A DNA stretch of 27,142 bases. Source: a virus. The notes beneath the pieces were generated by a model. That model was given only the letters and a program-made list of their open reading frames with translations, did no database searches and was not told the DNA's origin. Location of the stretch: positions 1 to 27,142 of the IMG/VR virus record IMGVR_UViG_3300027793_000246; one strand, given 5' to 3'. Numbering within the stretch: the stretch's first letter is position 1; each line of letters begins with the position of its first letter. Shown in pieces: positions 4,062 to 19,960 of this stretch. Made by a program: the position numbers and the translations under genes.

Positions 4062-4372
4062 GCGTATGCACACCTTGTTACAATGCAGGCGATTACATTG
4101 ATGCCTGCTTAGGTAGTTTCACCTTCGGAGCTGTTGAAGCCGATACCGAATACTTCGTTTGGGTGCAGCACAACGCTACTGGCAATGTGATGCTCATTGA
4201 AGCTGAGAGCGATGGCGAAGGCAACATAACTATTGAAGGGCTATCCCTTGACCCGATGCAAGGCTACACGATATGGGTAACACTAACCGCAACAGAGCAA
4301 AGCCATCAAGATATCACAGTCGATGGCGATATTTACAAGTGTTTATCATTCTCAGCTGCATTGATACAATGA
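4058..4372 (+). CDS. Hypothetical structural-type protein, 104 aa
   Basis: ATG 4058 overlaps the terL stop codon (ATGA). The N-terminus is MSVCTPCYNAGDYIDACLG, with three cysteines, followed by beta-rich segments (EYFVWVQHNATGNVMLIEAE; GNITIEGLSLDPMQGYTIWV). The Cys-rich start followed by strands recalls the start of the 10381 tail protein (CEGCGTPYQQ, then FQVETTPCEG). This suggests a beta-sandwich virion protein, but I recognise no named family. Position between terminase and tail chaperones fits a structural role. Confidence 0.7.
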   Translation: MSVCTPCYNAGDYIDACLGSFTFGAVEADTEYFVWVQHNATGNVMLIEAESDGEGNITIEGLSLDPMQGYTIWVTLTATEQSHQDITVDGDIYKCLSFSAALIQ

Positions 4373-4575
4373 GCAGGATAATGGCAATCATAGAAGGTTG
4401 GTTTTATTATATAACCAGCAATAGAGACGCAAGAGCAAGGAGCAAGCCTCGCACTGCGATATGTAACTTATGCCAGCATAAGAACAAGAAGCTAAACAGT
4501 TGCAATGAGTGCGGATGCTTCTTGCCTGCAAAGACGCGAGTAGAAGATGCGGAGTGCCCATTTGGTTATTGGTAG
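4369..4575 (+). CDS. Small zinc-ribbon protein, 68 aa
   Basis: ATG 4369 overlaps the preceding stop (ATGA); ATG 4381 is the alternative. Seen: CNLCQHKN, then CNECGCFLPAKT and AECPFGYW, i.e. CxxC, CxxCxC and a final CP, arranged like a treble-clef or zinc-ribbon fold with a terminal CP-x-x-x-W. An amphipathic segment (IMAIIEGWFYYITS) precedes it. Small proteins ending in CGCF-x-x-x-K ... CP-x-x-x-W recur beside tail genes of Bacteroidota phages as far as I recall; their role is unknown. Metal binding is a prediction from the cysteines. Confidence 0.65.
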   Translation: MSRIMAIIEGWFYYITSNRDARARSKPRTAICNLCQHKNKKLNSCNECGCFLPAKTRVEDAECPFGYW

Positions 4576-4577
4576 CT

Positions 4578-4835
4578 ATGGCAGCGTTTATCCACGTTCA
4601 TACTAAGCTAATTCAGTTTATGGACACTGAGGATGAGAAGTTGCAAGAGTTAACAACTGAGGAGCTTGGATACACCGATATAATTGTTAACTTAAATGAG
4701 ATAATGTACATATTCCACGATGGCAGAAGTACAATAGTAAAGATGTCAAACGCTAATGAATTACAAATAAAAGAATCTATAAATGAAGTTCACCAAGCAA
4801 TTAAAAGAGCGAGCGCGCTCTATCTTCCGCAGTAA
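4578..4835 (+). CDS. Hypothetical protein, 85 aa, small beta domain
   Basis: ATG 4578 follows the previous stop by two bases. The core DIIVNLNEIMYIFHDGRSTIVKMSNANEL then ESINEVHQAIKRA reads as a strand-turn-strand unit followed by a helix, the pattern of FlbD-like or LytTR-like small sheet domains. This is a resemblance only. The last 53 bases overlap the start of the next gene in another frame, so its C-terminus and the neighbour's start are encoded by the same DNA. Confidence 0.6.
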   Translation: MAAFIHVHTKLIQFMDTEDEKLQELTTEELGYTDIIVNLNEIMYIFHDGRSTIVKMSNANELQIKESINEVHQAIKRASALYLPQ

Positions 4836-5412
4836 GCAGAAAAGCGAATACAACTTAGTAAAAGTATTCGAGCACGAAGGGCATACATACTACCGCTTCC
4901 CGAAGGAGCTCAACCTACCATTGGAGCGCTTCAGTATGTCAATGGGCTTACTTGAGAGATTAAGCTGCGGACTGAGCGGCACGGAGATGGAGCTGATACT
5001 TGAAGGAATGGAGAAGGCGCTAAGTGCAGGGCTGAGCAATGCAAAGAACGCTGCGCTTGTTGCTGCGTATATCCACATCATACGCGAGCGGCAGGACACA
5101 GTTATTCACCGCGACATCTTGCTTAACATTGCAGCTACTTGGATAGTGCGCGATGACGAGAATCCTGCGGCGATAAACATTGACACCCACGAGCAGAAGT
5201 TGCAAGTATTTGAGAAGCTGAGCAAGGGAGGTGCGAAGGATTTTTTTTACAGCTTGGGTATCGACCCGCTGATGCCCTTGTTCACTATGTCAGCCGCCGA
5301 CTTTCAGACGCTATGGGAGTACAACCTAATAGCTCAAAGAAAGTTGAAAGAGAGCATCTTCCGATTAAATACTCACCGCGATACCGAGCGGCGCAAGCAG
5401 CAGACCACCTAA
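4783..5412 (+). CDS. Tail assembly chaperone, G-like product (209 aa)
   Basis: The gene ends 116 bases ahead of the tape measure gene, the place where tailed phages encode the G and G-T chaperones. The product is largely helical and charged (LLERLSCGLSGTEMELILEGM; NAALVAAYIHIIRER), with TMSAADFQTLWEYNLIAQRKL near the C-terminus. The helical, unremarkable sequence fits a chaperone that coats the tape measure before tail tube assembly. A T8 run at 5241-5248 lets ribosomes slip into the -1 frame, which is open up to 5528. Assignment rests on position, overlap and the slippery site, not on a recognised family. Start ATG 4783 overlaps the previous gene; no later start gives a better fit. Confidence 0.65.
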   Translation: MKFTKQLKERARSIFRSKQKSEYNLVKVFEHEGHTYYRFPKELNLPLERFSMSMGLLERLSCGLSGTEMELILEGMEKALSAGLSNAKNAALVAAYIHIIRERQDTVIHRDILLNIAATWIVRDDENPAAINIDTHEQKLQVFEKLSKGGAKDFFYSLGIDPLMPLFTMSAADFQTLWEYNLIAQRKLKESIFRLNTHRDTERRKQQTT

Positions 5413-5528
5413 AGGGGCAATGCCTGATATTGAGTGGTGGCAGCACTATTGAGTATAATGAATTGATGCGTGGTGATATTGATTTATATTTGCGTAAATT
5501 TGAAGCGCACATTAAAGCTCAAAAGTAA
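5214..5528 (+). CDS. T-like extension of the tail chaperone, read by -1 frameshift
   Basis: The -1 frame opens after TGA 5211-5213 and runs to TAA 5526-5528, directly abutting the tape measure ATG. A slip at 5241-5247 would join 155 residues of the first product to 93 from this frame (LQLGYRPADALVHYV onward), a 248-residue G-T type fusion. An ATG at 5313 could instead make a 71-residue separate protein, but it would start deep inside the overlap and would waste 99 open bases upstream. The end of the frame (GGSTIEYNELMRGDIDLYLR, KFEAHIKAQK) lies beyond the first gene's stop and is clearly coding. In the lambda family the T domain recruits tail tube subunits to the chaperone-tape measure complex. 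Confidence 0.6.
   Translation, partial: EAEQGRCEGFFLQLGYRPADALVHYVSRRLSDAMGVQPNSSKKVEREHLPIKYSPRYRAAQAADHLKGQCLILSGGSTIEYNELMRGDIDLYLRKFEAHIKAQK
5241..5271 (+). promoter_or_regulatory. Candidate -1 programmed frameshift site with downstream hairpin
   Basis: In the chaperone frame the codons are GAT TTT TTT TAC, giving the slippery heptamer T TTT TTT at 5241-5247. Just after it CAGC (5250-5253) can pair with GCTG (5268-5271) and GGGT (5256-5259) with ACCC (5264-5267), leaving a TT bulge and an ATCG loop. The spacer is only two bases, shorter than the usual five to nine. The -1 frame is open from 5214 to 5528, spanning the site. Confidence 0.65.
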
Positions 5529-8366
5529 ATGGCAACAGCAACGATTCAGATAGCCTATGAAGCGGAAACCACATCGCTAAAGGGAACGGTTAACGAGATT
5601 AATAAAATCAATGACCAAGTTGTTGAGAGCGCGAAGGAGTCGGCTACTAAGGCGAAGAAGGAGTATGTCGGCATTGCCAATGCGTTTGGAGCTGCCTTTA
5701 GTGGCGGTCAGGCAAAGAAGGCATTGGACAATCAGGCTAAGGCGATTGACAACTTAGGTAAGTCGGGCAAGAGTTTGACTGGGCAGCTACGAGGATTAAA
5801 AGGCGAGCTTGCTGCGCTGGAAATTGCAGGGCAAGAAGGCACTGCGGCATTTAACCAGTTGCTTATTGCAGCGGCAAAGCTCGAAGACCAGATTGGAGAT
5901 ACAAGGGCGCGAGTAAAGATACTTGCGAGTGATACATTTAAGTTTGATGTTGCTGTTGGTGCAACGCAGGCGCTCGCATCAGGCTTCGAAGTTGCGCAAG
6001 GTGCGGCGGCATTGTTCGGCAGCGAGTCTGAAGATTTGCAGAAAGTAATTGCAAAAGTAACAGCAGCCACTGCGGTAGCGAATGGAGTTAATCAGTTAGC
6101 CGCATTAATTAAAGAGGAAAACGCACTTAAGACTGGAATACAAACAGCAGCTGAAAATGCTTATGCTCTTGCAGTAGGTAAATCAACTGGAGCTTTGAAG
6201 GTGCTAAGATTAGCACTTGCAGCAACTGGCGTCGGAGCTTTGATAGTTGGCTTAGTTGCTTTGATTGAGAACTTTGATAAGATTAAGGATGCCATCAACG
6301 GAACATCAGATACAACAAGAGCACTGGCAGCTACATTGGATGAAACTAAGACTGCATTAGGCTCAGCATCAGAACAGACAATAAAGGTAGGCACTGCTTT
6401 CGAGTTGGCTAAGAAGGGAGTAATATCTAAGGAGGAGGCATTGCTAACTTACAATGAAACGCTTGGAGCTACCTTTGGTAAGACTGATGATTTGAATGTT
6501 GCTGAGGCTAACTACATCAAGAAGAAGGATGCTTACATAGCGGCAACAGTTGCAAGGGCGCAAGCTCAAGCATTGTTTGCTCAATCGGCAGTATTATCAG
6601 CTGAGGCGGCAACTGCATCTCAAGAAGATGTAAGAGGAGTGGGAGAAAAGATATTAGCTTTTACAACAAGGGCAACTGCTCAGTTTATTAAAACTAATAC
6701 AGCAGGCTTTATTGACTTAACAGATGAAGCGAAAAACTTTAATAACAACAGAGCAAAGCTGGCTCAAGAAGAAGTTAAAACATTAAAGAATGCGCAAGCG
6801 GAGAACGTGCTTAACTTAGGAAAGTCAAAGTTAGAAGAAGCGGAGATAATTGAAAACAGCGCAGGAATATTAAGCGAGGCTGAGCAAAAGATTGAAGAGC
6901 AAAGAGCAGAGAAAAGAAAGGCGGCAGCGGAGAAAGCACTTGAGGCGGCAAAGAAAGCGGCAGAAGACCAAGCGAAAGCAAGGGAGTCATTAGCGGCAAA
7001 AGAATTACAGTTGTTTGAATCGCAGCTAAGTGCTGAGGATAAAATAAGAAGCGACAGCAACAATGAAGTGATTGAACTTGAGAAGCAGTTTGCTGCGGCA
7101 AAGTTTAAAGCAGGCAGCGATGAGGAGCTTGCTGCTACACAGAAGTTGACTGATGCGATTGCGGTTATCAGGACAAATGCTAACAAGCAAATTGAGGTAC
7201 TTGACAAGGCAACGCAAGATAAGATATTAGCTGAAAGGTTGGAAGCGGCGAAGGCAGCGGAGGGCGCGACATTGCAGCAGCAGCTCGAAGCACTGGAGAA
7301 TCAGCAAAAGATTGAACTTGAAAATGTCAACTTGACTGAAGCTGAAAGGTTAAAGATAATTCAGAAGTATGGACCGCTAATTGGCAAGGCAAGAGCTGAC
7401 ATCGCAGACCAAACGCTCAACGATGAAATAAATAAACTTAAGACATTAGAGATAACTGAGGGTAGCAGCTTAGAACGCAGGGAGGCATTGATTAGAGCCG
7501 AAGGTGCAAAGCGAGTTAAAGCAGCAGGAGATGATGCAGAAGCGATTAAGTTAATTAATGCGGAGACTGATGCGGCTATTACAGAGGAGAATAAAAAAGA
7601 AATCGACAAGCGGATTGATTTAGCTTTTCAATATGCTGATGCGGTGGTTGGTATATTAAATACTTTAAACGAGCTAAGCAAGCAACAGACCGAGAACAGA
7701 ATTGCAGATATAACAACACAGAGCGAAGCCGAACTAAACGCAATTAACTCAAGTAATGATTTAGAGAGAGACAAAGCAAGACAGCGTGCTGCATTAGAGG
7801 TAAGAACTCAAAGGGCTATTGCTAACGAAAAAACTAAACAAGCAAAAAGAGATAAGAACTTAGCGTTGTTTAACATTGCAATTGCTACGGCAGAGGCAGT
7901 AATTAGGGCAATTGCTGCATCTCCTGAAACACTTGGGCTTCCTTTTTCTGCATTCGCAGCGGCAGCAGGTTTGGCTCAAGCGGCAGTTGTTGCAGCTAAG
8001 CCATTACCAAAGTTTGAGAAGGGCGGTGTTGTTGGCGGCAGGTTACACAGCAGCGGTGGCACGATGGTAGAAGCGGAGCGCGATGAATACATTGTCAATA
8101 GACGGCAAAGCATTAACCACCGCAGGGAGCTTGACGCGATAAACAGCTCAAGTGATGCTTTCAGGAAGTTAATCGAGCAACGCTATGTAAGACCAGCGTT
8201 AATGAACTTTGCGGCATCTAACCGCAATAAGCAGGGCGTAACAGTTAACGCATCGCTAAATAGTAAGAGTATGGAGAAGGAGATAAGAGGAATGCGCAAG
8301 GACTTAAAGAGCCGCAATGTAGTGATAAACATAAACCAACAAGATTCAAGATACCTATGGCAGTAG
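5529..8366 (+). CDS. Tail tape measure protein, 945 aa
   Basis: This is the length-setting scaffold of the tail, ejected ahead of the DNA. Seen: great length, Ala/Lys/Glu/Gln-rich coiled-coil stretches (about residues 430-640), a hydrophobic segment near 226-247 (LALAATGVGALIVGLVALI), and a second apolar region near 778-825 (IAIATAEAVIRAIAAS onward). The C-terminus FEKGGVVGG...SGGTMVEAERDEYIVNRR is a sequence type typical of the ends of tape measure proteins. ATG follows the chaperone stop with no gap. At roughly 1.5 angstrom per residue, the family rule, the tail would be about 140 nm long. There is no lysozyme or peptidase motif that I can see. Confidence 0.9.
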   Translation: MATATIQIAYEAETTSLKGTVNEINKINDQVVESAKESATKAKKEYVGIANAFGAAFSGGQAKKALDNQAKAIDNLGKSGKSLTGQLRGLKGELAALEIAGQEGTAAFNQLLIAAAKLEDQIGDTRARVKILASDTFKFDVAVGATQALASGFEVAQGAAALFGSESEDLQKVIAKVTAATAVANGVNQLAALIKEENALKTGIQTAAENAYALAVGKSTGALKVLRLALAATGVGALIVGLVALIENFDKIKDAINGTSDTTRALAATLDETKTALGSASEQTIKVGTAFELAKKGVISKEEALLTYNETLGATFGKTDDLNVAEANYIKKKDAYIAATVARAQAQALFAQSAVLSAEAATASQEDVRGVGEKILAFTTRATAQFIKTNTAGFIDLTDEAKNFNNNRAKLAQEEVKTLKNAQAENVLNLGKSKLEEAEIIENSAGILSEAEQKIEEQRAEKRKAAAEKALEAAKKAAEDQAKARESLAAKELQLFESQLSAEDKIRSDSNNEVIELEKQFAAAKFKAGSDEELAATQKLTDAIAVIRTNANKQIEVLDKATQDKILAERLEAAKAAEGATLQQQLEALENQQKIELENVNLTEAERLKIIQKYGPLIGKARADIADQTLNDEINKLKTLEITEGSSLERREALIRAEGAKRVKAAGDDAEAIKLINAETDAAITEENKKEIDKRIDLAFQYADAVVGILNTLNELSKQQTENRIADITTQSEAELNAINSSNDLERDKARQRAALEVRTQRAIANEKTKQAKRDKNLALFNIAIATAEAVIRAIAASPETLGLPFSAFAAAAGLAQAAVVAAKPLPKFEKGGVVGGRLHSSGGTMVEAERDEYIVNRRQSINHRRELDAINSSSDAFRKLIEQRYVRPALMNFAASNRNKQGVTVNASLNSKSMEKEIRGMRKDLKSRNVVININQQDSRYLWQ

Positions 8367-10384
8367 ATGTTAAGTTTATAATTGACGGAGCAGACAGAGG
8401 TCAACCAACCAATCTTGAAGATTTTGGCGTATCGGTTAAATTAGATAACTCGATTAATGCGCGTATTGTTTCATTCGATAATGATTTGATATTTGTTGGC
8501 GGTGTTTATGAGTACCTATTCAACAATCTTATTGAAACGGGTGGATGTTCATTGGTAAGTGTTGAGGTTCAATACCAATGCGCTGGGCTTTACAAGCGGT
8601 TGACAAACGGTTACATAATTGTAAGTGAATGCAGATTTGAATTAGACAAATGTCAGGTTACAACTAAACTTTATGATGATAGCTTTAGCACCAAGATAAA
8701 CAACAACAAGAGCATACCATTCTATTCAAACTCCAACATTACAAAAAACTTGCAGCCAGTTGTTCCACCAACTATTCACGATGTTGCTTTTTTTAATGTA
8801 ACCAACGGCGTTTATGATACAGTAAATCGCGTTGGCTGTATTAAGGTATATGACGCGCTGAAGTTTCTTGTTGCTTGTATGAGTGATAACTTCGTGGATT
8901 TTGAAAGCGACTATTTTAGAACTCAAGTAAATTCGCAAGGTTTTGGCAAAACATTGATGGTAACGAATGGCTTAGCTATTAGAAGCCCAAATCAAGCTCC
9001 AACTCAACTGGTATTTGATAAGCTATTTCAGGCACTCCATAAAAAGATAAGGCTCGGAATGGTTATTGAACGGCAAGCTAATGGCAGACCATTATTAAGA
9101 ATTGAAGATTATACCTACTTCGAACAGCTTGGTGCTGATGTTAATTTATACGACCAGCCAAATATAAGATTAGAGTTTGACAAAGAGCAGCAGTACCAAG
9201 CGGTGAACTTTGGCTCTGAGCCGTTCTTATATCCATCAGAGTGCAATGGTGGCAGCGGCGGTTGTACCTTTCCTCAGATTGCCTTTAGAGGATTTAAAGA
9301 TGAGACCTTTGGTTTTCTTGGTGAATGTAACACCTCCAATATTTTCGATTTAAAAAGCGGCGAGGTTGTATTTGATACAAATGTTATTGACGATATTTAT
9401 CGTTACAACAATAAAGAGTACGACCTAAGTATGGTGCTTGTTGATAGCAACTGGATTGGTAATATCTTTTTTACTCCAATCTTTGCAGATGACCAAGACC
9501 CTTTAGGAATAGGTGGGCACGTTTATAATAGTGAATATAGAAATGAAAATGTATCGGCTAACTGGCTCGGTGGTTTTCCCAATAGCTTGTTTCAATATTT
9601 GTCGGTTGGATTTAATCCAATAGAGACTATTGTATTTGCTAAATCAAACTACTCAGGTACGTTTCCCTTTTGGCAAATTGACTTTGGTGGTGATTTAGAT
9701 TATAGCACTTACAACGGCAGCTATATACAATTCAATGACCAAATATCAGATATTTATAATTTATTTGACGGAGAAACATATACCGTTCCTTTTACCGGAC
9801 TTTACACCGTGCTTGGAAGCATAGCACTTGAAAGGATATTGCTCGGTGCTGCTGACAATACCGGAAGGAATTTTAGAGTTTTAGTGCGCAGGTTTGATGC
9901 TTCAGCAACTTTGCTGCAAACTGTTGTCGGAGAGTTGTCGGAGGTTACTCTCGGAAAGTTTGATACTTATGCGGATTATAGTGTTCAGGTAGCTTGCGAT
10001 GCAACTGACCTTATTAGAGTTGATATACTTGGAAACTTTACTTCCAATATAGGTGCAACATTAGGGCAGGGATTACTTAACACGGCAACTTACAATGGAG
10101 TAACAAGAGAAACAAATGTTTATATCATTGGTTCTCCATTTGAGCCAACTGCATTAGCGCAGGTTGACCCGAACTCCGTACGCAGGTTAAATTACTTTTT
10201 CGACCGCCCACTACGCATGGAGGAGATTGAGGATATACTTGACAACACGAGCAAGCCAATTAAGTTTGGCAGGTGGGATGACCCGCTGCGAGTAATTGAA
10301 GGATATATCAAGAATGTTAATATTAAGAGCATCATTAAGCAAGATGCCTCTATTGAATTAAAATCAAACAAGATACTACGATGA
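8357..10384 (+). CDS. Putative distal tail/tail-tip protein, 675 aa
   Basis: The start overlaps the tape measure stop by 10 bases. The protein begins VDVKFIIDGADRGQPTNLEDFGVSV and is made mostly of predicted strands; a C-terminal unit (RPLRMEEIEDILDN, GRWDDPLRVIEGYIKNVNIK) resembles a hub or adaptor domain. A middle region (about 430-620) with phrases such as LRGS-like turns, FTGLYTVLGSIALERILLG, looks like a jelly-roll module. No enzyme motif is seen. The position directly after the tape measure is that of the distal tail or baseplate hub protein in siphoviruses; that is the reason for the call. The stop overlaps the ATG of the next gene (ATGA). Confidence 0.6.
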   Translation: MAVDVKFIIDGADRGQPTNLEDFGVSVKLDNSINARIVSFDNDLIFVGGVYEYLFNNLIETGGCSLVSVEVQYQCAGLYKRLTNGYIIVSECRFELDKCQVTTKLYDDSFSTKINNNKSIPFYSNSNITKNLQPVVPPTIHDVAFFNVTNGVYDTVNRVGCIKVYDALKFLVACMSDNFVDFESDYFRTQVNSQGFGKTLMVTNGLAIRSPNQAPTQLVFDKLFQALHKKIRLGMVIERQANGRPLLRIEDYTYFEQLGADVNLYDQPNIRLEFDKEQQYQAVNFGSEPFLYPSECNGGSGGCTFPQIAFRGFKDETFGFLGECNTSNIFDLKSGEVVFDTNVIDDIYRYNNKEYDLSMVLVDSNWIGNIFFTPIFADDQDPLGIGGHVYNSEYRNENVSANWLGGFPNSLFQYLSVGFNPIETIVFAKSNYSGTFPFWQIDFGGDLDYSTYNGSYIQFNDQISDIYNLFDGETYTVPFTGLYTVLGSIALERILLGAADNTGRNFRVLVRRFDASATLLQTVVGELSEVTLGKFDTYADYSVQVACDATDLIRVDILGNFTSNIGATLGQGLLNTATYNGVTRETNVYIIGSPFEPTALAQVDPNSVRRLNYFFDRPLRMEEIEDILDNTSKPIKFGRWDDPLRVIEGYIKNVNIKSIIKQDASIELKSNKILR

Positions 10385-12024
10385 GCTTTACTTCCATACC
10401 TAATCAACCGATAATCTTTAACCCAACGAGCGAGGTGCAATGCGAAGGCTGCGGCACTCCTTACCAGCAGCTCATTGACTTCAACGATGAGATATTTTTT
10501 CAAGTGGAGACAACACCCTGCGAAGGCTCGGAGCTTGTTATTGATGAAGTGTTAACCGCAGGATGGGGAGCGGTTGTTGATGGGCTTGCTTGTTCAACTG
10601 CGCTCAATAGCGGCGGCTTTTATCAGCAGGATTTGTATATGAATTACAGCTACGAGCTGTTCCAAGTTACGTTCACTATTCAAACATTGCAGCAGGGCAG
10701 CTTAACAATTCAGTTGCTCGGTTCATCCTCTTATACCTTTACGCTTCCCGGCACTTACACGCTGTACTTCAATGGTCCGACTGTGTCAGCAAGCAGCATT
10801 ACATTACGCTTCACCTCAACGAGTTGGATTGGCTGCTTGGATGTGGAAAGCATCACAGTCAATGGGCTTGCATCGGTGCAGCAGATGATAGTTGGAATAG
10901 TAGATGCCGATACATTGGAGACCGTTGACATCATTGCACCAACGTACACAGTAAAGGATAACAAGATAACTGGCGGCTTTGCTCTTACCGACTTGGAGCT
11001 TGGCGCTGGATGTTACCGACTTGCGCTCGTTGACTTCTGCACCAACACTTGCGGACAAAGCTATGTGTTTAATGGCAACTTAATGGAAGGTCCGTTCGGT
11101 GTTGAAGGTTGGACATTAGGTGGCACTGACTTACCAGTGCTTACGCAGGGCAGCGCAGTGTTTGATATAAACATTATGGATGGTACTTCAGTTATGACAT
11201 CCAATACCGGAGTGCAATTATGCGAGGGGTTAACATACAACATAAGCGTGTTTATTCAAAGCAGAACCGATGTAATCATATACGCTGTGCTCGGATCAAA
11301 CCAAGTTGAAATATCGGGCAGCGGCAGTCAAACAGTTTCATTGGTAGCAGGTGCAGGAACAGACTATTTGCAAATATTTGTAGAGCAAAGCGGCGCTGGC
11401 AATGGTTATGCAGAGCTTACAAGGTCAATAAGAGTTAGCGTTGCACAAGAGGACATCACTTGGAACGCTTACACCGATGTTCTCGCCATCGGCGATTACA
11501 ACGACCCTTGCAAGTATTACAAGATTGAAGGTTGCAACGCTGAGGACCAGTTCAATCTTGCCTTTGGTGGCAGCTCTTTCCTTCCTGCGATAAGGTTGGA
11601 GGGTCGCAAGTTCAGAGCGCAGTATGTTACGGAGGTGAACAACTTCAGATTCTCATCAGGCGGCTGGGCAACAACTTACGTTGACCGCGAGAAGAAGTGG
11701 ACCTTTGCCTTCGGCAGGCTACCTGAGTACGTGCTCGACTTCCTTAGCACCATCTTTTATTATGACAACTGCTATGTTAACGGCGATTTATATTACCCAA
11801 TAGATGGGGAGTTTCCTGATGTGGAGTATAACGATGCCGACGACTTGGGAGCTATAAGCGTTGACCTTGCGCTTAAGAAGTCTAAGGTGCGCAAGATTCT
11901 ATGCAGCAACACGAGCGCTGACTGCTTGCCTTCAATACTTGACAATACAGAGCCGTTTATTCTTACCGAAGATTTGCAAAGAATAACAACAGAAGATTCA
12001 GTTAATTTGTATTACGAAAATTAA
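10381..12024 (+). CDS. Cys-rich tail protein with carbohydrate-binding-like modules, 547 aa
   Basis: Seen: a Cys-rich N-terminus (VQCEGCGTPYQQ), a first beta-sandwich-like region (about 50-160), a linker, and a second (about 220-350) with the NLMEGPFGVEGWTLGG start and YAELTRSIRVSV end that resemble CBM/jelly-roll modules. A C-terminal part (GRKFRAQYVTEVNNFRF to DLALKKSKVRK) is unlike these and may anchor the protein in the tail. The last residues FILTEDLQRITTEDSVNL form an acidic tag that closely resembles the predicted -1 extension of the capsid protein. The gene follows the tail-tip protein with an ATGA overlap, so a tail-tip or receptor-contact role is likely, by inference. Confidence 0.6.
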   Translation: MSFTSIPNQPIIFNPTSEVQCEGCGTPYQQLIDFNDEIFFQVETTPCEGSELVIDEVLTAGWGAVVDGLACSTALNSGGFYQQDLYMNYSYELFQVTFTIQTLQQGSLTIQLLGSSSYTFTLPGTYTLYFNGPTVSASSITLRFTSTSWIGCLDVESITVNGLASVQQMIVGIVDADTLETVDIIAPTYTVKDNKITGGFALTDLELGAGCYRLALVDFCTNTCGQSYVFNGNLMEGPFGVEGWTLGGTDLPVLTQGSAVFDINIMDGTSVMTSNTGVQLCEGLTYNISVFIQSRTDVIIYAVLGSNQVEISGSGSQTVSLVAGAGTDYLQIFVEQSGAGNGYAELTRSIRVSVAQEDITWNAYTDVLAIGDYNDPCKYYKIEGCNAEDQFNLAFGGSSFLPAIRLEGRKFRAQYVTEVNNFRFSSGGWATTYVDREKKWTFAFGRLPEYVLDFLSTIFYYDNCYVNGDLYYPIDGEFPDVEYNDADDLGAISVDLALKKSKVRKILCSNTSADCLPSILDNTEPFILTEDLQRITTEDSVNLYYEN

Positions 12025-12032
12025 TATATTTG
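12007..12032 (+). promoter_or_regulatory. Promoter for the tail tube gene
   Basis: TATATTTG at 12025-12032 fits TAnnTTTG and starts just after the stop codon of the tail gene. The nearest TTG (12007-12009) is 15 bases upstream, slightly short. The leader to ATG 12112 is about 75 bases and contains TAGGT and ACCTA, which can pair. Separate, strong transcription suits an abundant tail tube protein. Confidence 0.55.
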
Positions 12033-12111
12033 CAACACCATAGAGAATAAAGTAGGTGTACTTGACGCGACCTATTCAACAGCGCAACAATTATATTAAT
12101 ACTTTACTAAA

Positions 12112-12651
12112 ATGGCTTGTGTATCTTATTGCGACACATCACTGCTGGAGCACGACTTGGTGCTCTGCAACGAATATAAACTTGGCGGGGTTTCCGCTAT
12201 CATAGTAGGCTCATGTGGAACAGAGCTTGTTGACCCATCAGATAATGTTGAAGTTGAGGCATTGCTTAACGCTGGCACTGCAAGAATGATAAGCGATATT
12301 CGCTTTGCGCTTCCTGCTGGTTCACCGATAACAGTTGATTCACCAATCGGCTGCGGCACTTCAATCAGAATCAATGAAGATAGGACTGCTACATTGTACG
12401 ATGCGAATGTTACCGATGGCAACAGCATCTTCTGGAACGATGTAAATAATCGCCGTATCTCTTGGATTCTTGCGTATATGTGCGACAGCGGAAAAGTGAT
12501 TTACATCACCGCTCCAGTTGGTATCACTACTTCAGCTAACTTCATCTTGCCTGAGCAGAACAACGAGCTCCAAAGATATGAGGTAACTTTCTCTTGGAGA
12601 AACAAGAACATTCCTGCACAATATGACGCACCTGCTGGCATATTCAACTAA
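12112..12651 (+). CDS. Putative major tail tube protein, 179 aa
   Basis: A compact protein with its own promoter and leader. It has a Cys-rich start (CVSYCDTSLLEHDLVLCNEYKLGG), a central region of predicted strands (ARMISDIRFALPAGSPITVDSPIGC), and a C-terminal strand ending in RYEVTFSWRNKNIPAQYDAP. The RYEVTF...W near the C-terminus is the kind of strand seen in tail tube subunits. Size, separate promoter and place among tail genes support the call, but no family is recognised outright. Its end overlaps the start of the glycosyltransferase frame by 29 bases. A head or tail decoration protein is the alternative. Confidence 0.5.
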   Translation: MACVSYCDTSLLEHDLVLCNEYKLGGVSAIIVGSCGTELVDPSDNVEVEALLNAGTARMISDIRFALPAGSPITVDSPIGCGTSIRINEDRTATLYDANVTDGNSIFWNDVNNRRISWILAYMCDSGKVIYITAPVGITTSANFILPEQNNELQRYEVTFSWRNKNIPAQYDAPAGIFN

Positions 12652-14241: not shown

Positions 14242-16101
14242 ATGGAGGACATACAGAAGATTGTCGATAAATTTATTTCCAAGCACAAAGCATGGCATCA
14301 GTACAATTTATCCAATCCAAAGAAAGGCACTAAGTACCCGGAATATTGGAGCGGCTACAATTATGCTGCACGGATGTATGACAGCATCTTACCGCACAGC
14401 CGCTCGGATGTTTACCCTGAGCACTTGCTTTCTGTACGCGCTCCAAATCAAACCGATGCGCAGGCTAACTACATTAAGGAGAACTATAAGGCAACAACGC
14501 TGAGTGTGTTCGAAGATTTCAAGAGCACGATAAGCCGCGCATTTGCCGACCAAAACTGGAGCATAAGGTACAACGGCGAAGTTGACCCGCGATTCGGTGA
14601 GGAGACCTTTCAGCAATATGTTAACAATGAGATTGAGAAGTTCGGCTCATTGGAAATGTTCATCAAGAATATGCTTCCAACTTTGAAGCTCGTAGATGCC
14701 AATGGCATCATTGCGATATTCCCTGAGGATATATACACAGACGAGGAAGGCACTATCACCAACGACCTGATAAAGCCGATGCCTGAATACTACAACTGCA
14801 AGAACATTGTAGGGCAGGACTTTGGCGAGTATTACTTAGTAATCACCGATGACTACTCCAATGTAAAGGTTGGCAGCAAGATGGAAAAGAGCGGAATGAT
14901 TCTTGAGCTATATGGCAAAGAAGCAATCTATCGCATCGAGCAGGTAGGCAAGAAGTCTGACTTCACCTTTAGCGAACCAGTGCTTGTGTTTCAGCATAAC
15001 TTAGGCTATGTTCCTGCAATTAAGTTGATGGGCTCACCGCAGCTTATTGGTGATGAGCTTGCGTTCCAATCGCCATTCATTACAGCAGTGCCACTACTTG
15101 ACCAAGTGATACTTGATGAGAGCTACTTGCAGATGAGCAAGGCTACAAGCGCATTCCCTTTTATGGTTGCGCTTGGCGAGATATGCGAGTTCACCGATAA
15201 GGAAGGCAACCGATGTAATGATGGGCAGATATTCGACCCTATCAACGGCGGCTATCGCACCTGCGGCAGTTGCTCAGGTAGTGGAGTAAAGAGCAGATTC
15301 TCACCAACAGGAATGCTACTCATTAAACCAAAGACATCAATCAGCGAAGGAGACACCGGATTGAGCGGTGAGTATCTTAAGTTCGTGTCTCCACCGATGG
15401 AAACATTGAGCTTCTTGCGCACCGAGATTGAGCAGCAGATGGCAAAGTCAAGAAGGATATTGCACTTGCCATCGAGCGATGAGAGCGGAACTATTGGCGA
15501 GGCATCCACAGCAACGGGCAGCTTGAATAAGTTGCGCAGCTTGTATGCGTTTATTAAGCCAATCTCAGACCAGCTATTTACTATTTATGAGTTCTGCTTA
15601 GTAACAATCGGGCGGATGAGATATGGCGATTTATTCGGCGGCGTTAACTTAGTATATCCGACATCATTCGACATTAGCACTCCGAGCGACTACCTTGCAG
15701 TAATTAGCGAGGGGGTTAAAGCAGGAGTGCCGCCATCAATTACCTTTAGCAATGTGTACAACTACATCAGAGCGATTCACTATACAGACGACGAGACAAG
15801 CGCGATATACGACTTAATTATCAATGCCGATGAATTGCTGCTAATGAGCAATGCGGATGTATTAGCGAGGCTCGCAAGCGGCACAGTTGAGAAGTGGCAG
15901 GATGTATTGCACAACAGCGCACCTCAGCTTATTATGGAGTTGATTAGAGATTACATTCCAACCGAAGGAGCTCCGACATTCCTAAGCCTACCAATGAGCG
16001 ATAAGATAAGACTATTGCAGGAGAAGGCAGCGGAAAAAATCAGAGTACAACTTGACCCAATAGCGCAGGCGCAACAAACATTATTGAATGGCATCGTTTG
16101 A
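14242..16101 (+). CDS. Portal protein with internal zinc-binding motif, 619 aa
   Basis: This forms the dodecameric ring at the capsid vertex through which DNA is packaged. Evidence: length, position directly ahead of the MuF-like gene, alternating helices and strands, and phrases typical of portal proteins of Bacteroidota phages (YWSGYNYAARMYDSIL near the start, VPLLDQVILDESYLQMSK in the middle, LPSSDESGTIGEASTATGSL near 410). Four cysteines at 315, 325, 341 and 344 (EICEFTDKEGNRC, then TCGSCSGSG) form a rubredoxin- or DnaJ-like zinc knuckle in the middle, unusual for a portal. The gene overlaps the next by 14 bases. An analogous DUF-type portal-like protein is possible, but context makes portal the best call. 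Confidence 0.8.
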   Translation: MEDIQKIVDKFISKHKAWHQYNLSNPKKGTKYPEYWSGYNYAARMYDSILPHSRSDVYPEHLLSVRAPNQTDAQANYIKENYKATTLSVFEDFKSTISRAFADQNWSIRYNGEVDPRFGEETFQQYVNNEIEKFGSLEMFIKNMLPTLKLVDANGIIAIFPEDIYTDEEGTITNDLIKPMPEYYNCKNIVGQDFGEYYLVITDDYSNVKVGSKMEKSGMILELYGKEAIYRIEQVGKKSDFTFSEPVLVFQHNLGYVPAIKLMGSPQLIGDELAFQSPFITAVPLLDQVILDESYLQMSKATSAFPFMVALGEICEFTDKEGNRCNDGQIFDPINGGYRTCGSCSGSGVKSRFSPTGMLLIKPKTSISEGDTGLSGEYLKFVSPPMETLSFLRTEIEQQMAKSRRILHLPSSDESGTIGEASTATGSLNKLRSLYAFIKPISDQLFTIYEFCLVTIGRMRYGDLFGGVNLVYPTSFDISTPSDYLAVISEGVKAGVPPSITFSNVYNYIRAIHYTDDETSAIYDLIINADELLLMSNADVLARLASGTVEKWQDVLHNSAPQLIMELIRDYIPTEGAPTFLSLPMSDKIRLLQEKAAEKIRVQLDPIAQAQQTLLNGIV

Positions 16102-16999
16102 GCAGCTCGTTAAAGAGAAGATTAAGCTGCTGGAAAGTGTACCAGAGAGCATTGCAACTGCGGCAATCAAGGCACAGCGCGATGCGTGGCGAAAGATTGA
16201 ACCAATGTTGCAGGAGATGGATGTCGACGCCGATGGAAACATTGCACAGACAGAAGACAACATCCGAAGAATTGGACTAATAACAGACGAGCTAAATAAG
16301 TCGCTGGCAGGGGGTGAGTATCGCGATGCGGTGCAGTCCTTTCTCGGCTCAATAGATGAAGGCGTACAGCTAACAGACGATATTGCAAAGAAGATTGATA
16401 GCTCCTTTAAGCCTGACAACGTGCAGAAACAGCTATTGGCAATATCCAAGCAGAATGCAATCAATGCTTTCTTTGGATCGGGGCTTCGGCAAAATGTTTC
16501 AGTGCCATTCTTAGAGCAGCTAACTGCGAATGTTGCCGCAAGAGCGCCGCTAAACCAAGCTGTTAAGGCGCTCAAAGGAGTTATTGAAGGAACGGAAACA
16601 ACAGACGGCAGGCTGCTTGCTAATGTGCGCACCACCGCAGGAACAGCGCAGGCGATTGCAGACCGAAGCTATTCAGCAGCAGTTAATGAGGAGCTCGGCA
16701 TTGAATACTTCCAATACTTAGGAGGCGAGATTGCAACAACAAGAACTTTCTGCCAGCACCGCGAAGGGCAGATATTTCACCGCAAAGAGATTGAATCATG
16801 GGGCAATGGCGAAAATAGCGCAGGCATTAACGACATACGAGGCGGCACTTGGGATGGTCGCATTGATGGCACTGATAGCAAGACAATCTTTACCTTTGTT
16901 GGCGGTTGGAACTGCCGCCACTACCTTGTGCCAATAATTGCCAATAGAGTGCCTGCCTCAATTAAGGCAAGAGCGAAGGCGGAGGGGTATGTGGAGTGA
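16088..16999 (+). CDS. MuF-like minor head (head morphogenesis) protein, 303 aa
   Basis: Seen near the C-terminus: TRTFCQHREGQIFHRKEIESW, then GGTWDGRIDGT and GGWNCRHYLVPI, the Cys/His-bearing motif set of the phage Mu gpF-like domain. The N-terminal two thirds is helical (FEQLVKEKIKLLESVPESIA). Proteins of this type sit inside the head beside the portal and are needed for correct head assembly; some travel into the host. The overlap with the portal gene supports this. The stop codon TGA (16997-16999) lies inside an 11-base inverted repeat that marks the edge of the minus-strand gene cluster. Confidence 0.85.
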   Translation: MASFEQLVKEKIKLLESVPESIATAAIKAQRDAWRKIEPMLQEMDVDADGNIAQTEDNIRRIGLITDELNKSLAGGEYRDAVQSFLGSIDEGVQLTDDIAKKIDSSFKPDNVQKQLLAISKQNAINAFFGSGLRQNVSVPFLEQLTANVAARAPLNQAVKALKGVIEGTETTDGRLLANVRTTAGTAQAIADRSYSAAVNEELGIEYFQYLGGEIATTRTFCQHREGQIFHRKEIESWGNGENSAGINDIRGGTWDGRIDGTDSKTIFTFVGGWNCRHYLVPIIANRVPASIKARAKAEGYVE

Positions 17000-17306
17000 T
17001 TGCCGAAGTTTTGTTGCGGGTAGCCAGTAGTTAGTTGCCATTTTTTGACAACTCTAACTTTTTCAACTCTATTTCAAGCCTTAACTTTTCTTTTTCAAGT
17101 TCAATCATTTCTTTTTTATACTGAATGTCTTTATTCAGTTCTTTGCCAAATTTATAAGCCCCACCAACTAAAACGAGTAATAAAACGGCAACTAACAGCA
17201 CATTGCCAAAAGTGGGGGTTTCATTTTTCATATCAACATTTTCCATATTATCAAGTTTTGTATTTTAATTAAACATTAGTGGTACAATGCCCCACCTTCG
17301 GCAATC
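16998..17306. repeat. 11-bp inverted repeats flanking the first cassette-like unit
   Basis: GATTGCCGAAG at 16998-17008 and its exact reverse complement CTTCGGCAATC at 17296-17306 bracket a 309-base unit containing one minus-strand gene. The left copy overlaps the MuF stop codon; the right copy is part of the next boundary repeat. This might be the mark of an inserted mobile unit or two halves of a recombination site. Confidence 0.6.
17031..17246 (-). CDS. Small membrane protein with charged C-terminal helix, 71 aa
   Basis: Seen: one membrane segment (VLLVAVLLLVLVGGAYKF) and then a long charged helix made of K, E and L (MIELEKEKLRLEIELKKLELSK), likely to form a coiled coil. TAA is in GGCAACTAAC, close to the boundary motif. 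This is the last gene of the minus-strand cluster. The layout (membrane anchor plus coiled coil) is seen in small prophage and cassette proteins, including spanin-like and exclusion proteins, but nothing identifies its role. Confidence 0.6.
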   Translation of the reverse strand: MENVDMKNETPTFGNVLLVAVLLLVLVGGAYKFGKELNKDIQYKKEMIELEKEKLRLEIELKKLELSKNGN

Positions 17307-17323
17307 TGCGACCCGTTATAGGC
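17276..17323 (-). repeat. Cassette boundary repeat, copy 1
   Basis: On the minus strand TATAACGGGTCGCAG is followed by GAAGGTGGGGCATT and ACCAC, matching copies at 18112-18153 and 18432-18465. The TAA stop of the 17537-17316 gene is the TAA of this motif. Confidence 0.6.
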
Positions 17324-17537
17324 TATTAATAGACCCTTCATAATCTGCCTCGACTGCTTTTAACGAAAGACTTTTTTTGCCTCCTTTAGTTTTAACCCAA
17401 GCGGATAACCTATAAATTTTATCTTCAATTTTGATATATCCTCCATAGTCAGGAGATTTATCAGTTGTTTTCATTGGGAATTGGTTTAGATGTCCTGCAC
17501 CTTCCAGTAGTTCCTCTAAATACTTTTTTTTGTCCAT
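17316..17537 (-). CDS. Hypothetical protein, 73 aa
   Basis: The product begins MDKKKYLEELLEGAGHLNQF and continues with strands (GGYIKIEDKIYRLSAWVKTKGGKKSLSLKA). The second half, IKIEDKIYRLSAWVKTKGGKKSLSL, recalls small single-stranded DNA-binding or DUF-type beta proteins that report on metabolism (x-x-Y-R-L-x-A-W-x-K), but no family is certain. It is a stand-alone gene between two boundary repeats, with its TAA inside one of them. Confidence 0.6.
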   Translation of the reverse strand: MDKKKYLEELLEGAGHLNQFPMKTTDKSPDYGGYIKIEDKIYRLSAWVKTKGGKKSLSLKAVEADYEGSINSL

Positions 17538-17571
17538 TGTTTTATTATTTATGTGATTAAAAATTTAACAG

Positions 17572-17667
17572 CCTATAACAAGGTATTTGCAAAATTGCCC
17601 ATTAACATTTGTGCTTAATTTGAAGTATCTGCAAGGGCAACTTCGCAAATACCCGACCGTTATGCCC
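17572..17667 (-). repeat. attC-like palindromic boundary between two minus-strand genes
   Basis: Outer arms ATAAC (17575-17579) and GTTAT (17659-17663), inner arms GGTATTTGC (17582-17590) and GCAAATACC (17645-17653), then TTGCCC (17595-17600) and GGGCAA (17635-17640), around a 34-base loop that itself has ATTAA/TTAAT. Unpaired, unequal spacers separate the arms on the two sides. Paired outer and inner boxes with a spacer and a terminal loop are the architecture of an integron attC site. The TAA stop of the gene at 18094-17660 is part of the outer arm, as in many integron cassettes. The outer box does not match the GTTRRRY consensus exactly. Confidence 0.6.
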
Positions 17668-18094
17668 CATTATAAACATAGCGTTCCATAGCAAATTTAG
17701 CCGACAACATTTCCTCATCTTTTGGGTATTCTCCAATCTTTGTAAAGTGTTGCAATGTGTTTGGCAAGTTTTTATTCCACGGATAATAGTTTTCGCATCC
17801 GTATTTTAAAGAAACCATATTGTGTTCAGGTTCTTCATAATCTTCAAATGATTTGGCATCGGTTATTGTAATAACGTATGCTTTCATTTTAAAGTCATTA
17901 TCACGCTTAACAATTATTCCAATGCTATCGGCATAATGATATTTATGGTCGCCTCCATCTTCGGAGTAAAACACAATATCGTTTTCTTTAACTTCTGACC
18001 CGTCTTTATAAAAATAACGGGGCATAACAGCACCTACCAAAAAGGCGGGGCTTTCGGCTTCGTTAGAAGCATTTGTGGTTACATTATCATTCAT
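17660..18094 (-). CDS. Hypothetical protein, 144 aa
   Basis: The largest gene of the inverted cluster. Residues 25-75 (MPRYFYKDGSEVKENDIVFYSEDGGDHKYHYADSIGIIVKR) read as a small SH3-like barrel of strands, and the end (LSAKFAMERYVYNG) is helical. Sequences with the pattern D-G-x-E-V-x-x-x-D-I-V are known in small cargo proteins of many bacteria, but I do not assign a function. The gene is bounded by a boundary repeat upstream and the attC-like palindrome downstream; its stop lies in the latter. Confidence 0.65.
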   Translation of the reverse strand: MNDNVTTNASNEAESPAFLVGAVMPRYFYKDGSEVKENDIVFYSEDGGDHKYHYADSIGIIVKRDNDFKMKAYVITITDAKSFEDYEEPEHNMVSLKYGCENYYPWNKNLPNTLQHFTKIGEYPKDEEMLSAKFAMERYVYNGA

Positions 18095-18111
18095 CTTTCT
18101 AAGTTTATTTT

Positions 18112-18153
18112 GTGGTTAAAATCCCGCCCTTCTGGTAGCTGCAAAACGTTAGC
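18112..18153 (-). repeat. Cassette boundary repeat, copy 2
   Basis: On the minus strand GCTAACGTTTTGCAGCT, then GAAGGGCGGGATT and AACCAC. It shares TAACG-n-TTTGCAGCT and GCGGGATT with copy 3 and GAAGG...ACCAC with copy 1. It lies between the stop of the 18398-18162 gene and the start of the 18094-17660 gene. Confidence 0.65.
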
Positions 18154-18161
18154 GGAAATGG

Positions 18162-18398
18162 TCAGACGTTGTATCTAACAGCAGAAACCATTGCTATCAA
18201 CAATAAAATACCTGCTATAATTGCACCATCTGTCCCAAACATTTGTCCAATGCAAAACATTACACCGCCTGATAATATTGTTGATACAAACATATACCAT
18301 CCAGTTCCCTTTTTAACTTTCGATAAACCACTACCGCTAACAGCATTTTTGCTCAATGCGGGGTTCTCGTTTTCTAAGTTTGTTTTTTCTGTATTCAT
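18162..18398 (-). CDS. Small two-pass membrane protein, 78 aa
   Basis: A polar N-terminal half (NTEKTNLENENPALSKNAVSG) is followed by two membrane segments (YMFVSTILSGGVMFCIGQMF and IIAGILLLIAMVSAV). No signal or family is recognised. It starts downstream of boundary copy 3 and stops 9 bases ahead of the TAACG motif of copy 2. Small membrane proteins are frequent among integron cassettes and among phage exclusion genes. Confidence 0.6.
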   Translation of the reverse strand: MNTEKTNLENENPALSKNAVSGSGLSKVKKGTGWYMFVSTILSGGVMFCIGQMFGTDGAIIAGILLLIAMVSAVRYNV

Positions 18399-18431
18399 AA
18401 TTTTCGTTTTTTAAGTAAGTTTATCTTCATC

Positions 18432-18465
18432 AATCCCGCACTAAGCAAAGCTGCAAACCGTTACC
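18432..18465 (-). repeat. Cassette boundary repeat, copy 3
   Basis: On the minus strand GGTAACGGTTTGCAGCT, then GTGCGGGATT. The TAA is the stop codon of the gene at 18670-18461. It matches copy 2 closely in its first 17 and its last 8 bases. Confidence 0.65.
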
Positions 18466-18670
18466 ATTCACTCGGTGCTTCTTCGTATTCTTCGCCGCTG
18501 CCATCGCACTGCTTGCATTCAATAGTATGTTCGCGCCTGCACTCATCGGTGCAATCGGCGCACATTGTTTCAACTGCGCAGTCGTTCACAAAGCAGCGCA
18601 CTGACTGCTCAAGAATATAACCTGCACCCTCGCATCGGGTGCAATCAATTAATCGGAGGCGGTGGATCAT
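18461..18670 (-). CDS. Zinc-finger protein with DnaJ-like CxxCxGxG motifs, 69 aa
   Basis: Seen: CTRCEGAGYI near the start and CKQCDGSGEE near the end, two CxxCxGxG motifs as in the DnaJ zinc-finger, with further cysteines in between (CFVNDC, CADCTDEC). Two zinc sites are likely. Such mini-DnaJ-finger proteins are common in phages, where their task is mostly unknown. ATG overlaps the stop of the upstream gene (TGA at 18669-18667), so the two are translated as a pair. GC content resembles the main phage genes, unlike its AT-rich neighbours. Confidence 0.65.
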   Translation of the reverse strand: MIHRLRLIDCTRCEGAGYILEQSVRCFVNDCAVETMCADCTDECRREHTIECKQCDGSGEEYEEAPSEW

Positions 18671-18915
18671 GCGTTTGCGTAGCTTATTAGTTTATTAAAG
18701 TTTGTAAAAAATCTTCTTTGCATTTCTTGGTTAACATTATCATAGCAAATAGCTCTGCTGAAATCTTCAATTATATTTTTAGAAGTATTGAAACCTGCTG
18801 AGAATTTAAGACCATTAATTGAAAATTCAATATCCATGTTGTATCCGTTTACATCAACTACTGTATATTCTACATTCATTTTTGTAAGTTTAGAAATTAA
18901 GTTTGCTGTTGTCAT
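18667..18915 (-). CDS. Hypothetical protein, 82 aa
   Basis: First gene of the inverted cluster, about 28 bases downstream of its promoter's expected start. Contains an N-terminal helix (ISKLTKMN), strands (VEYTVVDVNGYNMDIEFSINGLKFSAGFN) and a helical C-terminus (QEMQRRFFTNFNKLISYAN). No family is recognised. It is AT-rich, and could be a small regulator or an unrelated cargo gene. Confidence 0.6.
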   Translation of the reverse strand: MTTANLISKLTKMNVEYTVVDVNGYNMDIEFSINGLKFSAGFNTSKNIIEDFSRAICYDNVNQEMQRRFFTNFNKLISYANA

Positions 18916-18947: not shown

Positions 18948-18977
18948 CAAAGATAATACTTTTTTTTAATTATGCAA
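18948..18977 (-). promoter_or_regulatory. Promoter for the inverted gene cluster
   Basis: On the minus strand TTG (18977-18975), a 19-base spacer, then TATCTTTG (18955-18948): a full Bacteroidota-type promoter. It gives a leader of roughly 28 bases ahead of ATG 18915. Confidence 0.7.
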
Positions 18978-19020: not shown

Positions 19021-19028
19021 TATCTTTG
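19021..19028 (+). promoter_or_regulatory. Promoter -7 element for the scaffold region
   Basis: TATCTTTG four bases before ATG 19033, again pointing to a leaderless transcript. No clear TTG lies 17-19 bases upstream. It faces away from the minus-strand promoter across a 117-base AT-rich region, so plus-strand transcription restarts here after the inverted cluster. Confidence 0.55.
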
Positions 19029-19032
19029 CGGT

Positions 19033-19248
19033 ATGACCTATTATATATTAAGCGATGGCAGCATTAAACAAGCAACAGACGTGCTTGCCAAAGAGCTAAT
19101 AAAAAGAGGCGCAAGAGAATTGAAACTCACACCAATAGAAATAAATTATGAAACAAGAGGAAGCACTGGAGCTGGTCAAGTTCCTGAACTTAGAGGAGGC
19201 AACAGACCTCGAAGCGGCAAAAGAAAAGTTCCAAGAAAATTGGATTAA
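19033..19248 (+). CDS. Small hypothetical protein, 71 aa, overlapping the scaffold gene
   Basis: The first 40 residues (MTYYILSDGSIKQATDVLAK, ELIKRGARELKLTPIEI) look like a normal small domain. The last 30 are Gly/Arg/Lys-rich (RGGNRPRSGKRKVPRK) and come from the 101-base overlap with the next gene in another frame. It starts just after a promoter element. Either it is a short protein with a basic tail, or its natural stop was lost and it now reads into the scaffold gene. Confidence 0.5.
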   Translation: MTYYILSDGSIKQATDVLAKELIKRGARELKLTPIEINYETRGSTGAGQVPELRGGNRPRSGKRKVPRKLD

Positions 19249-19960
19249 ACAAGAGGAGGTAAGCAGTAAAATCGGCAAGCTCACTGGCACTATTGCGAAT
19301 GTAACACGCAAAGCATTTGAGCCGTTCGGCATTGTGCTAACTGATGAAGATTTCAAAGGGCAAAAAGTTGAGGAGGTTATCCGCAACGCATCGGAGAAGG
19401 CAAAGTCAGAATACGAAAAGCAGCGCGAAGATTGGGAAAAGCGAGCATCAGGCAACGGGTCAGAGGCGCTTATCCAAGAGTGGGAGAAAAAGTATAAATC
19501 ACTTGAGCGCAAGAGCAACGAGCTTGATAGCGCTCGCCAAGATGTGATGTCGCAGTTCGAGAATTATAAGCAGCAAGTTGCAACAGAGATGAAGAATAGC
19601 AAGATTAACAATTCATTCGAGAAGGAGCTGGCGAATTTGAAACTTGACCCAACAGTTAACGAGTACACCATTCGCGGCTTTAAGTCTGCCGTTACTGAGA
19701 AGTATGCAATCGACTTAGAGGAGGATGGAGCGTTCATTGTCAAAGATAAAAAGACGGGCGAGCGCCTGAAGTCTAAAGAGAAAGCAGGCTCATTCTTAAG
19801 CGTTTCAGATGTGCTATTGAAAGAGGCAACAGAAGCAGGAATAATCCAAAAGAATCCGCACGCTGGTGCAAAGTTTCCAAAGCAAACGCCGTTCACTCCA
19901 ATACTTGAGCAGCAGAATAGCAAGTTGAAATCTATCAATCCAAGATTTTATACAAAGTAA
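19148..19960 (+). CDS. Capsid scaffold protein, 270 aa
   Basis: Seen: high Glu/Lys content, a long predicted coiled coil (about residues 70-165: SEKAKSEYEKQREDWEKRA, KKYKSLERKSNELDSARQD), and a basic C-terminal end (QQNSKLKSINPRFYTK). This, with the position directly ahead of the major capsid gene, is the pattern of a head scaffold that is removed after prohead assembly; the basic tail could bind the capsid protein. There is no protease motif here or nearby that I can recognise. Confidence 0.75.
   Translation: MKQEEALELVKFLNLEEATDLEAAKEKFQENWIKQEEVSSKIGKLTGTIANVTRKAFEPFGIVLTDEDFKGQKVEEVIRNASEKAKSEYEKQREDWEKRASGNGSEALIQEWEKKYKSLERKSNELDSARQDVMSQFENYKQQVATEMKNSKINNSFEKELANLKLDPTVNEYTIRGFKSAVTEKYAIDLEEDGAFIVKDKKTGERLKSKEKAGSFLSVSDVLLKEATEAGIIQKNPHAGAKFPKQTPFTPILEQQNSKLKSINPRFYTK

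Follow-up and report, generated by a model that had tools for sequence, protein, structure and literature searches.

What are six small minus-strand genes doing in the middle of a head-tail module that is otherwise read from the plus strand? The question is raised by the IMG/VR viral contig IMGVR_UViG_3300027793_000246, whose 27,142 bp make up the window analysed here and in which open reading frames (ORFs) a to f occupy positions 17031-18915 between plus-strand head genes. The first-pass annotation had described these genes as an interruption of the head module, most of them AT-rich, and this description is accurate, the region having a GC content of 34-39% against 45-50% in its flanks. Sequence comparison favours, with a probability of about 0.88, the reading that positions 17030-18463 are four integron-type cassettes without an integrase of their own (a cluster of attC sites lacking an integron integrase, CALIN) in a Bacteroidota phage, with reversed genes, exchange at G^TTA and a recombinase acting in trans.

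The argument starts from the boundaries between the genes. The repeats that had been noticed at three boundaries are real (family D1, at 18432-18463, 18120-18151 and 17287-17318) and are 66-75% identical; they exceed chance because each is the right end (L'-R') of an attC hairpin of 90-131 bp, and, folded alone, the short repeats gave no structure because they represent only one arm of each attC. On the plus strand every unit runs from a GTTA start through the body, R'', L'', a loop of up to ~75 nt and L' to the next GTTA, and this R''-L''-loop-L'-GTTA layout is, by its sequence, the anatomy of an integron cassette. In the attC alignments, R'' and L'' are repeatedly separated by 1 nt, and L' and R' by 5 nt. 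The four sites comprise attC_a (17189-17318, R' GTTA at 17315-17318), attC_b of a shorter type (17572-17662, R' GTTA at 17659-17662), attC_c (18021-18151, crossover core GTTA at 18148-18151) and attC_d (18334-18463, R' GTTA at 18460-18463), all read on the plus strand and thus opposite to the cassette genes. Each cassette's own R'' box repeats the start, GTTRRRY, as a perfect reverse complement, over 10, 10, 10 and 8 nt in a, b, c and d respectively. The start/R'' pairs are GTTAGTTGCC/GGCAACTAAC for a, where the R'' of attC_a mirrors its own start at 17030, GTTATAGGC/GCCTATAAC for b, GTTATGCCCC/GGGGCATAAC for c and GTTAGCGG/CCGCTAAC for d.

A covariance-model search, as the first-pass annotation had suggested, located attC at four boundaries. 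The first model, R1, included window sites a, c and d and was replaced as evidence by R2, which was built from 33 chromosomal Bacteroidota attC only, with no window sequence, and which recovered attC_a, attC_b, attC_c and attC_d with E values of 1.5e-20, 1.1e-4, 4e-22 and 4e-16. The R2 alignment shows changes on both sides in 15 of its 17 L-stem pairs, and none of 500 shuffles reached its covariation score. When folded as single-stranded DNA, the bottom strand, the one expected to recombine, was the more stable in all four attC, and attC_b gave z = -3.15 as DNA and z = -6.5 as RNA. A scan by the own-start/R'' hallmark alone is strand-symmetric and noisy, and orientation was taken from the polarity of the model. 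Rfam returned no match in the window. An ordinary phage moron operon, whose intergenic hairpins serve as transcription terminators or regulatory RNA, would suit genes that are small, co-directional and accessory as well as hairpins that also form in mRNA, but it is barely credible: the own-start/R'' complementarity spans whole genes, which is senseless for a terminator; the same site structure occurs in about one third of sampled Bacteroidota genomes, mostly by forward genes; and joints lie at G^TTA, the core-exact presence and absence of cassettes in the contigs L258, L098 and L109 and in lillamy phages, set out below, already contradicting it.

Relatives of the window reveal how the array is gained and lost. 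Among 80 relatives collected by their minor head protein, the site is empty in most, with 150-166 bp separating the genes that flank the array, namely the minor head gene on its left (16088-16999, plus strand) and the scaffold-like gene on its right (19148-19960, plus strand). Contig L002, whose head protein is 90% identical, contains d with its attC, then two other cassettes and then e, so that the same d and attC stand between neighbours that both differ from those in the window; gene d is 96% identical in L002 and 79-82% identical in other viral contigs. In L258, with a scaffold protein 98% and a capsid protein 99% identical, the 493 bp of cassette c recur at 100% identity and end at G18148, the G of G^TTA, after which e follows directly and d is missing. 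An insertion of ~1.1 kb, placed precisely at CCG^TTA, distinguishes contigs L098 and L109. Over d, e and f, the window matches the independent contig L083 without a difference, and the array is therefore no assembly artefact. The left boundary of the array (GCGGGTAGCCAGTAGTTA, 17016-17033, plus strand, with GTTA at its end) behaves as an insertion point, attI-like or a remnant half-site; it is also found in L002, where it leads into cassette d rather than a, and among the compared loci it occurs only there and in copies of L002 and the window. In the relatives L003-L010, R2 found no attC.

Cultured phages provide the same picture on a larger scale. A DNA search with attC_c matched Flavobacterium phage hemulen6-1, in which R2 detects 12 attC, all on the plus strand at 2700-9935, along with weak minus-strand echoes of two sites; all ~18 annotated genes of this stretch lie on the minus strand, and 11 of the 12 attC show own-start/R'' matches of 7-10 nt. 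Sister phages of hemulen, which share its two hosts, reach 97-100% identity but have only 40-90% of the region in common. Their alignment breakpoints fall within 8 nt of a CGTT core in 26 of 33 cases, compared with a background of 10%, the 33 breakpoints recurring among related phages and so not being independent. In lillamy9-7, a 444-bp cassette at the first array position (2037-2480) is identical (100%) to positions 5637-6080 of lillamy9-1, and its place is, to judge from the two sequences, the trace expected of excision and re-insertion at an attI-like end.

These joints also bear on the idea of a frozen relic, in which cassettes were captured a single time, when phage and host integron underwent homologous or illegitimate recombination, and have since varied by ordinary recombination within the conserved attC arms. 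An integrase is absent from the window and nine relatives, the attC arms of different cassettes are alike enough to recombine, and off-target homologous recombination is also considered for phage CALINs in the available text of PMC9892861, all of which would agree with such a history. It is nevertheless distinctly improbable, since the joints lie at the core G instead of being scattered over the common arm (G18148 in L258, the L098/L109 difference, the 26 of 33 breakpoints), one cassette was relocated unchanged to the first position in lillamy9-7, and R'' fits its own start in nearly all cassettes, a fit that drift or random joints would ruin. Comparison of natural genomes shows the attC structure, the core-exact gain, loss and movement, the polarity and the location of start codons within attC.

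What do the cassettes encode, and why do their genes run backwards? When the model sets the polarity and the own-start/R'' hallmark sets the cassette limits, gene direction relative to attC is 30 forward to 1 reversed in chromosomal arrays and 2 forward to 53 reversed in phages, a contrast with a nominal Fisher p of ~1e-19, the related phages not being independent and the 55 phage cassettes coming from 31 loci. An ATG lies inside the attC of 31 reversed cassettes, mostly 42-70 nt in, and the L'' arm then encodes N-terminal tags such as SPAFLVGAV, NPALSKNAV or KPVLPAV. An identical tag is found on many different gene bodies, while the body of gene c sits on four attC/tags (window, L259, L260 and L261), the switch falling exactly at the GTT of R'', and recurs on other tags across L259-L263. 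Of 54 reversed cassettes, 17 have precisely the core TTA as their stop codon.

The four cassette genes of the window, all on the minus strand, follow this design to differing degrees. Gene a (17031-17246), which encodes a small membrane-type protein of 71 aa, starts inside attC_a and has its TAA stop in a core TTA; gene b (17316-17537; 73 aa), which weakly matches families of phage single-strand DNA binding proteins, has its start outside attC_b; attC_c encodes the first 23 residues of gene c (17660-18094; 144 aa); and attC_d encodes the N-terminus of gene d (18162-18398; 78 aa), another membrane-type protein. Pfam and PHROGs offered little information on these genes. In the mRNA sense, the start codons of a, c and d lie in the loops of hairpins of -36, -41 and -31 kcal/mol. 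The count of four in five stop codons within TAAC motifs, given by the first-pass annotation, is exact: genes a, b, c and e end in a TAA formed by the TTA of a GTTA core (17031-33, 17316-18, 17660-62 and 18461-63), and gene d ends in a TGA ~13 nt inside its cassette. That annotation's comparison with integron genes that stop inside an attC core was right in that the TTA of GTTA forms the stop and wrong in that this stop comes from the cassette's own first bases, with the attC at the start of the gene, opposite to its place in ordinary cassettes. In principle, a body between perfect inverted R boxes could be inverted by R' x R'' recombination, turning a forward cassette into a reversed one; no clean example of an inverted cassette body was found.

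Genes e and f stand apart. Gene e (18461-18670, minus strand) encodes a CXXC-rich protein of 69 aa, and gene f (18667-18915, minus strand) one of 82 aa that overlaps e at an ATGA; R2 found no attC belonging to either, and relatives of gene e are present in L003 and L004, loci without attC by that model. The proposal of a cassette array, which stands for a to d with a complete attC each, thus fails for these two genes, which are, on their sequence, a resident leftward two-gene operon abutted by the cassettes. Ahead of f lies a putative leftward promoter, TTG-N19-TATCTTTG, of the Bacteroidota TAnnTTTG type (18948-18977, minus strand), the -7-like box of which is kept in L002-L004, and a putative rightward -7 box, TATCTTTG (19021-19028, plus strand), precedes a leader ORF of the scaffold gene and has similar boxes in empty-site relatives. 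Beside the leftward promoter, GAGTGAAT at 18930-18937 matches part of the mirrored end of gene e (GTTACCATTCACTC at 18460) and is perhaps an old cassette end or a chance match. Other arrangements were seen around this site. In L006 (1254-2126) it is occupied by a minus-strand gene of 290 aa with GTTAGC at its left end, and the model detected no attC there; at its insertion border, L003 (6930-6985) repeats part of the sequence that codes for the C-terminus of the minor head protein (KARAEAEGYT); and further phages of the clade, L038 (3240-3369), L047 (7918-8036) and L071 (8754-8883), have attC cassettes at another location, flanked by the scaffold and capsid genes, on the minus strand.

Where does such an array come from, and which enzyme would move it? 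The right-arm pattern of attC matched at least 118 stretches in a one-genome-per-species collection, with record titles that are nearly all Bacteroidota and a few Ignavibacteria/Chlorobi; these matches have a ~130-bp element in common, and a plus-strand ORF ends just before R'' in 82 of 110 of the elements by a simple rule. In a sample of 198 genomes from across Bacteroidota, R1 detects the element in 64, about one third, at E<1e-6. The repeat search and the comparison of relatives that the first-pass annotation had called for have therefore both been productive: the same attC is widespread in Bacteroidota genomes, and the content at this place differs between relatives (empty sites, L002 and L258), so that neither a fixed order of the six genes in all relatives nor repeats restricted to this locus were found.

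In the genomes examined, the chromosomal sites form arrays, several of which adjoin a tyrosine recombinase in the same direction, 353-476 aa long in intact cases. Against NF040815, 'site-specific tyrosine recombinase/integron integrase' (cut-off 220), this recombinase reaches 200-234 bits; against TIGR02249, the IntI model (cut-off 265), it reaches 188-215 bits and leaves positions ~180-238 unmatched; its nearest solved structures are XerA-type proteins, followed by IntI4 (2a3v). TIGR02249 exceeded its cut-off in none of 35 genomes, and the partial matches led to the array-adjacent recombinases. The recombinases of L240-L248 have an extra N-terminal part of ~70-180 aa, which is not covered by the tyrosine recombinase models and contains W-rich motifs (e.g. 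GATWSASKKFWHLPDT). On a Chryseobacterium plasmid (L251, NZ_CP041688.1), at least four attC of the same family come after a 'site-specific tyrosine recombinase/integron integrase'. Two features make the chromosomal array of L246 (G003:C1:2108000-2127500) a possible exchange point between the phage and chromosomal pools: one of its cassettes is short and reversed (MKRSEIKVRVKLGDV..), and it holds a protein related to one from a viral cassette (MSQIETSQDKEMFG.. / L082).

A recombinase encoded by the phage itself, in the ~8 kb of a typical genome missing from the window, or by a co-infecting phage, is unlikely. One contig does speak for it, as L269 (G075:C1:28000-44000, the same region as L255/L256) has a 267-aa IntI-like recombinase at 11638-12441 that adjoins a reversed attC array including a relative of gene d and is possibly a complete phage integron; this large viral contig also has lysyl-tRNA-synthetase-like and replication-type genes. 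Against it, the tyrosine recombinase family PF00589 has no match in the window or in nine near relatives, several of ~34-36 kb, and this recombinase type is missing from 30 of the 31 other attC-bearing viral contigs, many of them fragments. On the strength of these absences, we infer that recombination is supplied by the host.

Taken together, comparison of natural genomes shows that cassettes are gained, lost and relocated at G^TTA, where recombination is most likely the work of the IntI-like tyrosine recombinase that lies beside same-family attC arrays in Bacteroidota chromosomes and would act in trans during infection. Transcription from the promoter by the scaffold gene would run leftwards through f, e, d, c, b and a, placing each attC at the 5' end of its gene; a, c and d would take their start codon from the attC hairpin loop and a short N-terminal tag from the L'' arm, and the core TTA supplies the TAA stop of a, b and c, if these genes are expressed as predicted. 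The array may thus be an exchangeable set of accessory genes, which in cultured phages of this type includes DNA methyltransferases plausibly used against host restriction. The hemulen methyltransferase gp014 starts inside its attC with the tag MQKTLFENENLIEPLTPAFCIGAVS, and its best matches include proteins of 94-100% identity in hemulen, snork, sniff, tooticki, mumin, mymlan and filifjonk phages, none from lillamy or morran being listed among them. In the available text of Nilsson et al. (2020, PMC7077304), methyltransferase presence or absence in Baltic Flavobacterium 'Muminvirus' phages is correlated with plating efficiency, and that methyltransferase would be gp014.

We consider it probable, in broader terms, that Bacteroidota phages have their own pool of reversed cassettes, in which attC gives a start codon and an N-terminal tag to the body after R'' and the core can give the stop, so that the coding sequence incorporates the recombination site. 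Bodies would swap attC and tag at R'', as in the one body with four tags, and counter-restriction genes such as methyltransferases would be shuffled, the movement in trans being the work of a widely distributed, little-described lineage of Bacteroidota integrons, the integrase of which lacks an IntI-specific segment.

Several points weigh against the reading of the window as a phage CALIN. Searches for an attI with the left-boundary sequence yielded nothing useful. All four cassettes are reversed with respect to the usual direction, in which the stop codon stands next to R'', a direction that is typical of cassettes and not strictly defining. The window is a 27-kb fragment of a ~35-kb genome, so that an integrase elsewhere is excluded only in relatives, and the link between integrase and attC in Bacteroidota is one of proximity. 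That the genes are expressed, the promoter active and the tags used is deduced from sequence features, and the enzyme, attI, transcription, translation from attC and benefit have the same conditional standing.

The birth of integron cassettes and the near-uniform direction of their genes relative to attC have long been in question, and a phage pool of opposite polarity with the start codon in attC is a natural, comparable and testable counter-example. Pairs of cultured virulent phages that share one host and differ by single cassettes make integron function in phages directly testable; among such differences is a methyltransferase whose presence fits the plating difference in the available text of PMC7077304. 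Earlier records of Bacteroidota integrons comprise In0 elements and one complete integron in Salinibacter ruber (IntegronFinder 2.0, PMC9024848), and the occurrence of attC in about a third of sampled genomes indicates a large lineage where surveys found almost none.

Cassettes in a phage, which the first-pass annotation had held to be novel, are already published. The available text of Qi et al. (2023, PMC9892861) describes attC cassettes without integrase (CALINs) in virulent phages, some recombined by IntI1, so that phage attC clusters as such are known. Like the window, these are integrase-less arrays, and they include the Bacteroidota phage Polaribacter P12002L, on which R2 found no attC of the present family, and methyltransferase genes; that text presents typical arrays with the usual gene direction and P12002L with divergent attC directions, whereas the window genes are reversed, and it does not describe reversed genes, start codons inside attC or Flavobacterium. 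The 'Muminvirus' phages have the same array type as the window, as the 12 attC of hemulen6-1 demonstrate, and the available text of PMC7077304, unlike the present reading, makes no mention of integrons. What appears to be new is the reversed cassette design, together with the Bacteroidota pool and the attC that bears the start codon, no description of them having been found in the open-access literature searched. Sedentary chromosomal integrons of the Vibrio type resemble the window in their R and L boxes, in an R'' complementary to its own start, in the G^TTRRRY crossover, in the better folding of the bottom strand and in near-identical attC on different genes; they differ in that the phage genes are reversed and the window has no integrase in cis, and the Bacteroidota integrase lacks the stretch matching TIGR02249 at ~180-238 and scores below its cut-off. 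In Spirochaetota, the typical IntI is generally in reverse orientation (PMC9668308), an unusual polarity within the integron that recalls the window; there it is the integrase gene that is reversed, whereas here it is the cassette genes that run against their attC.

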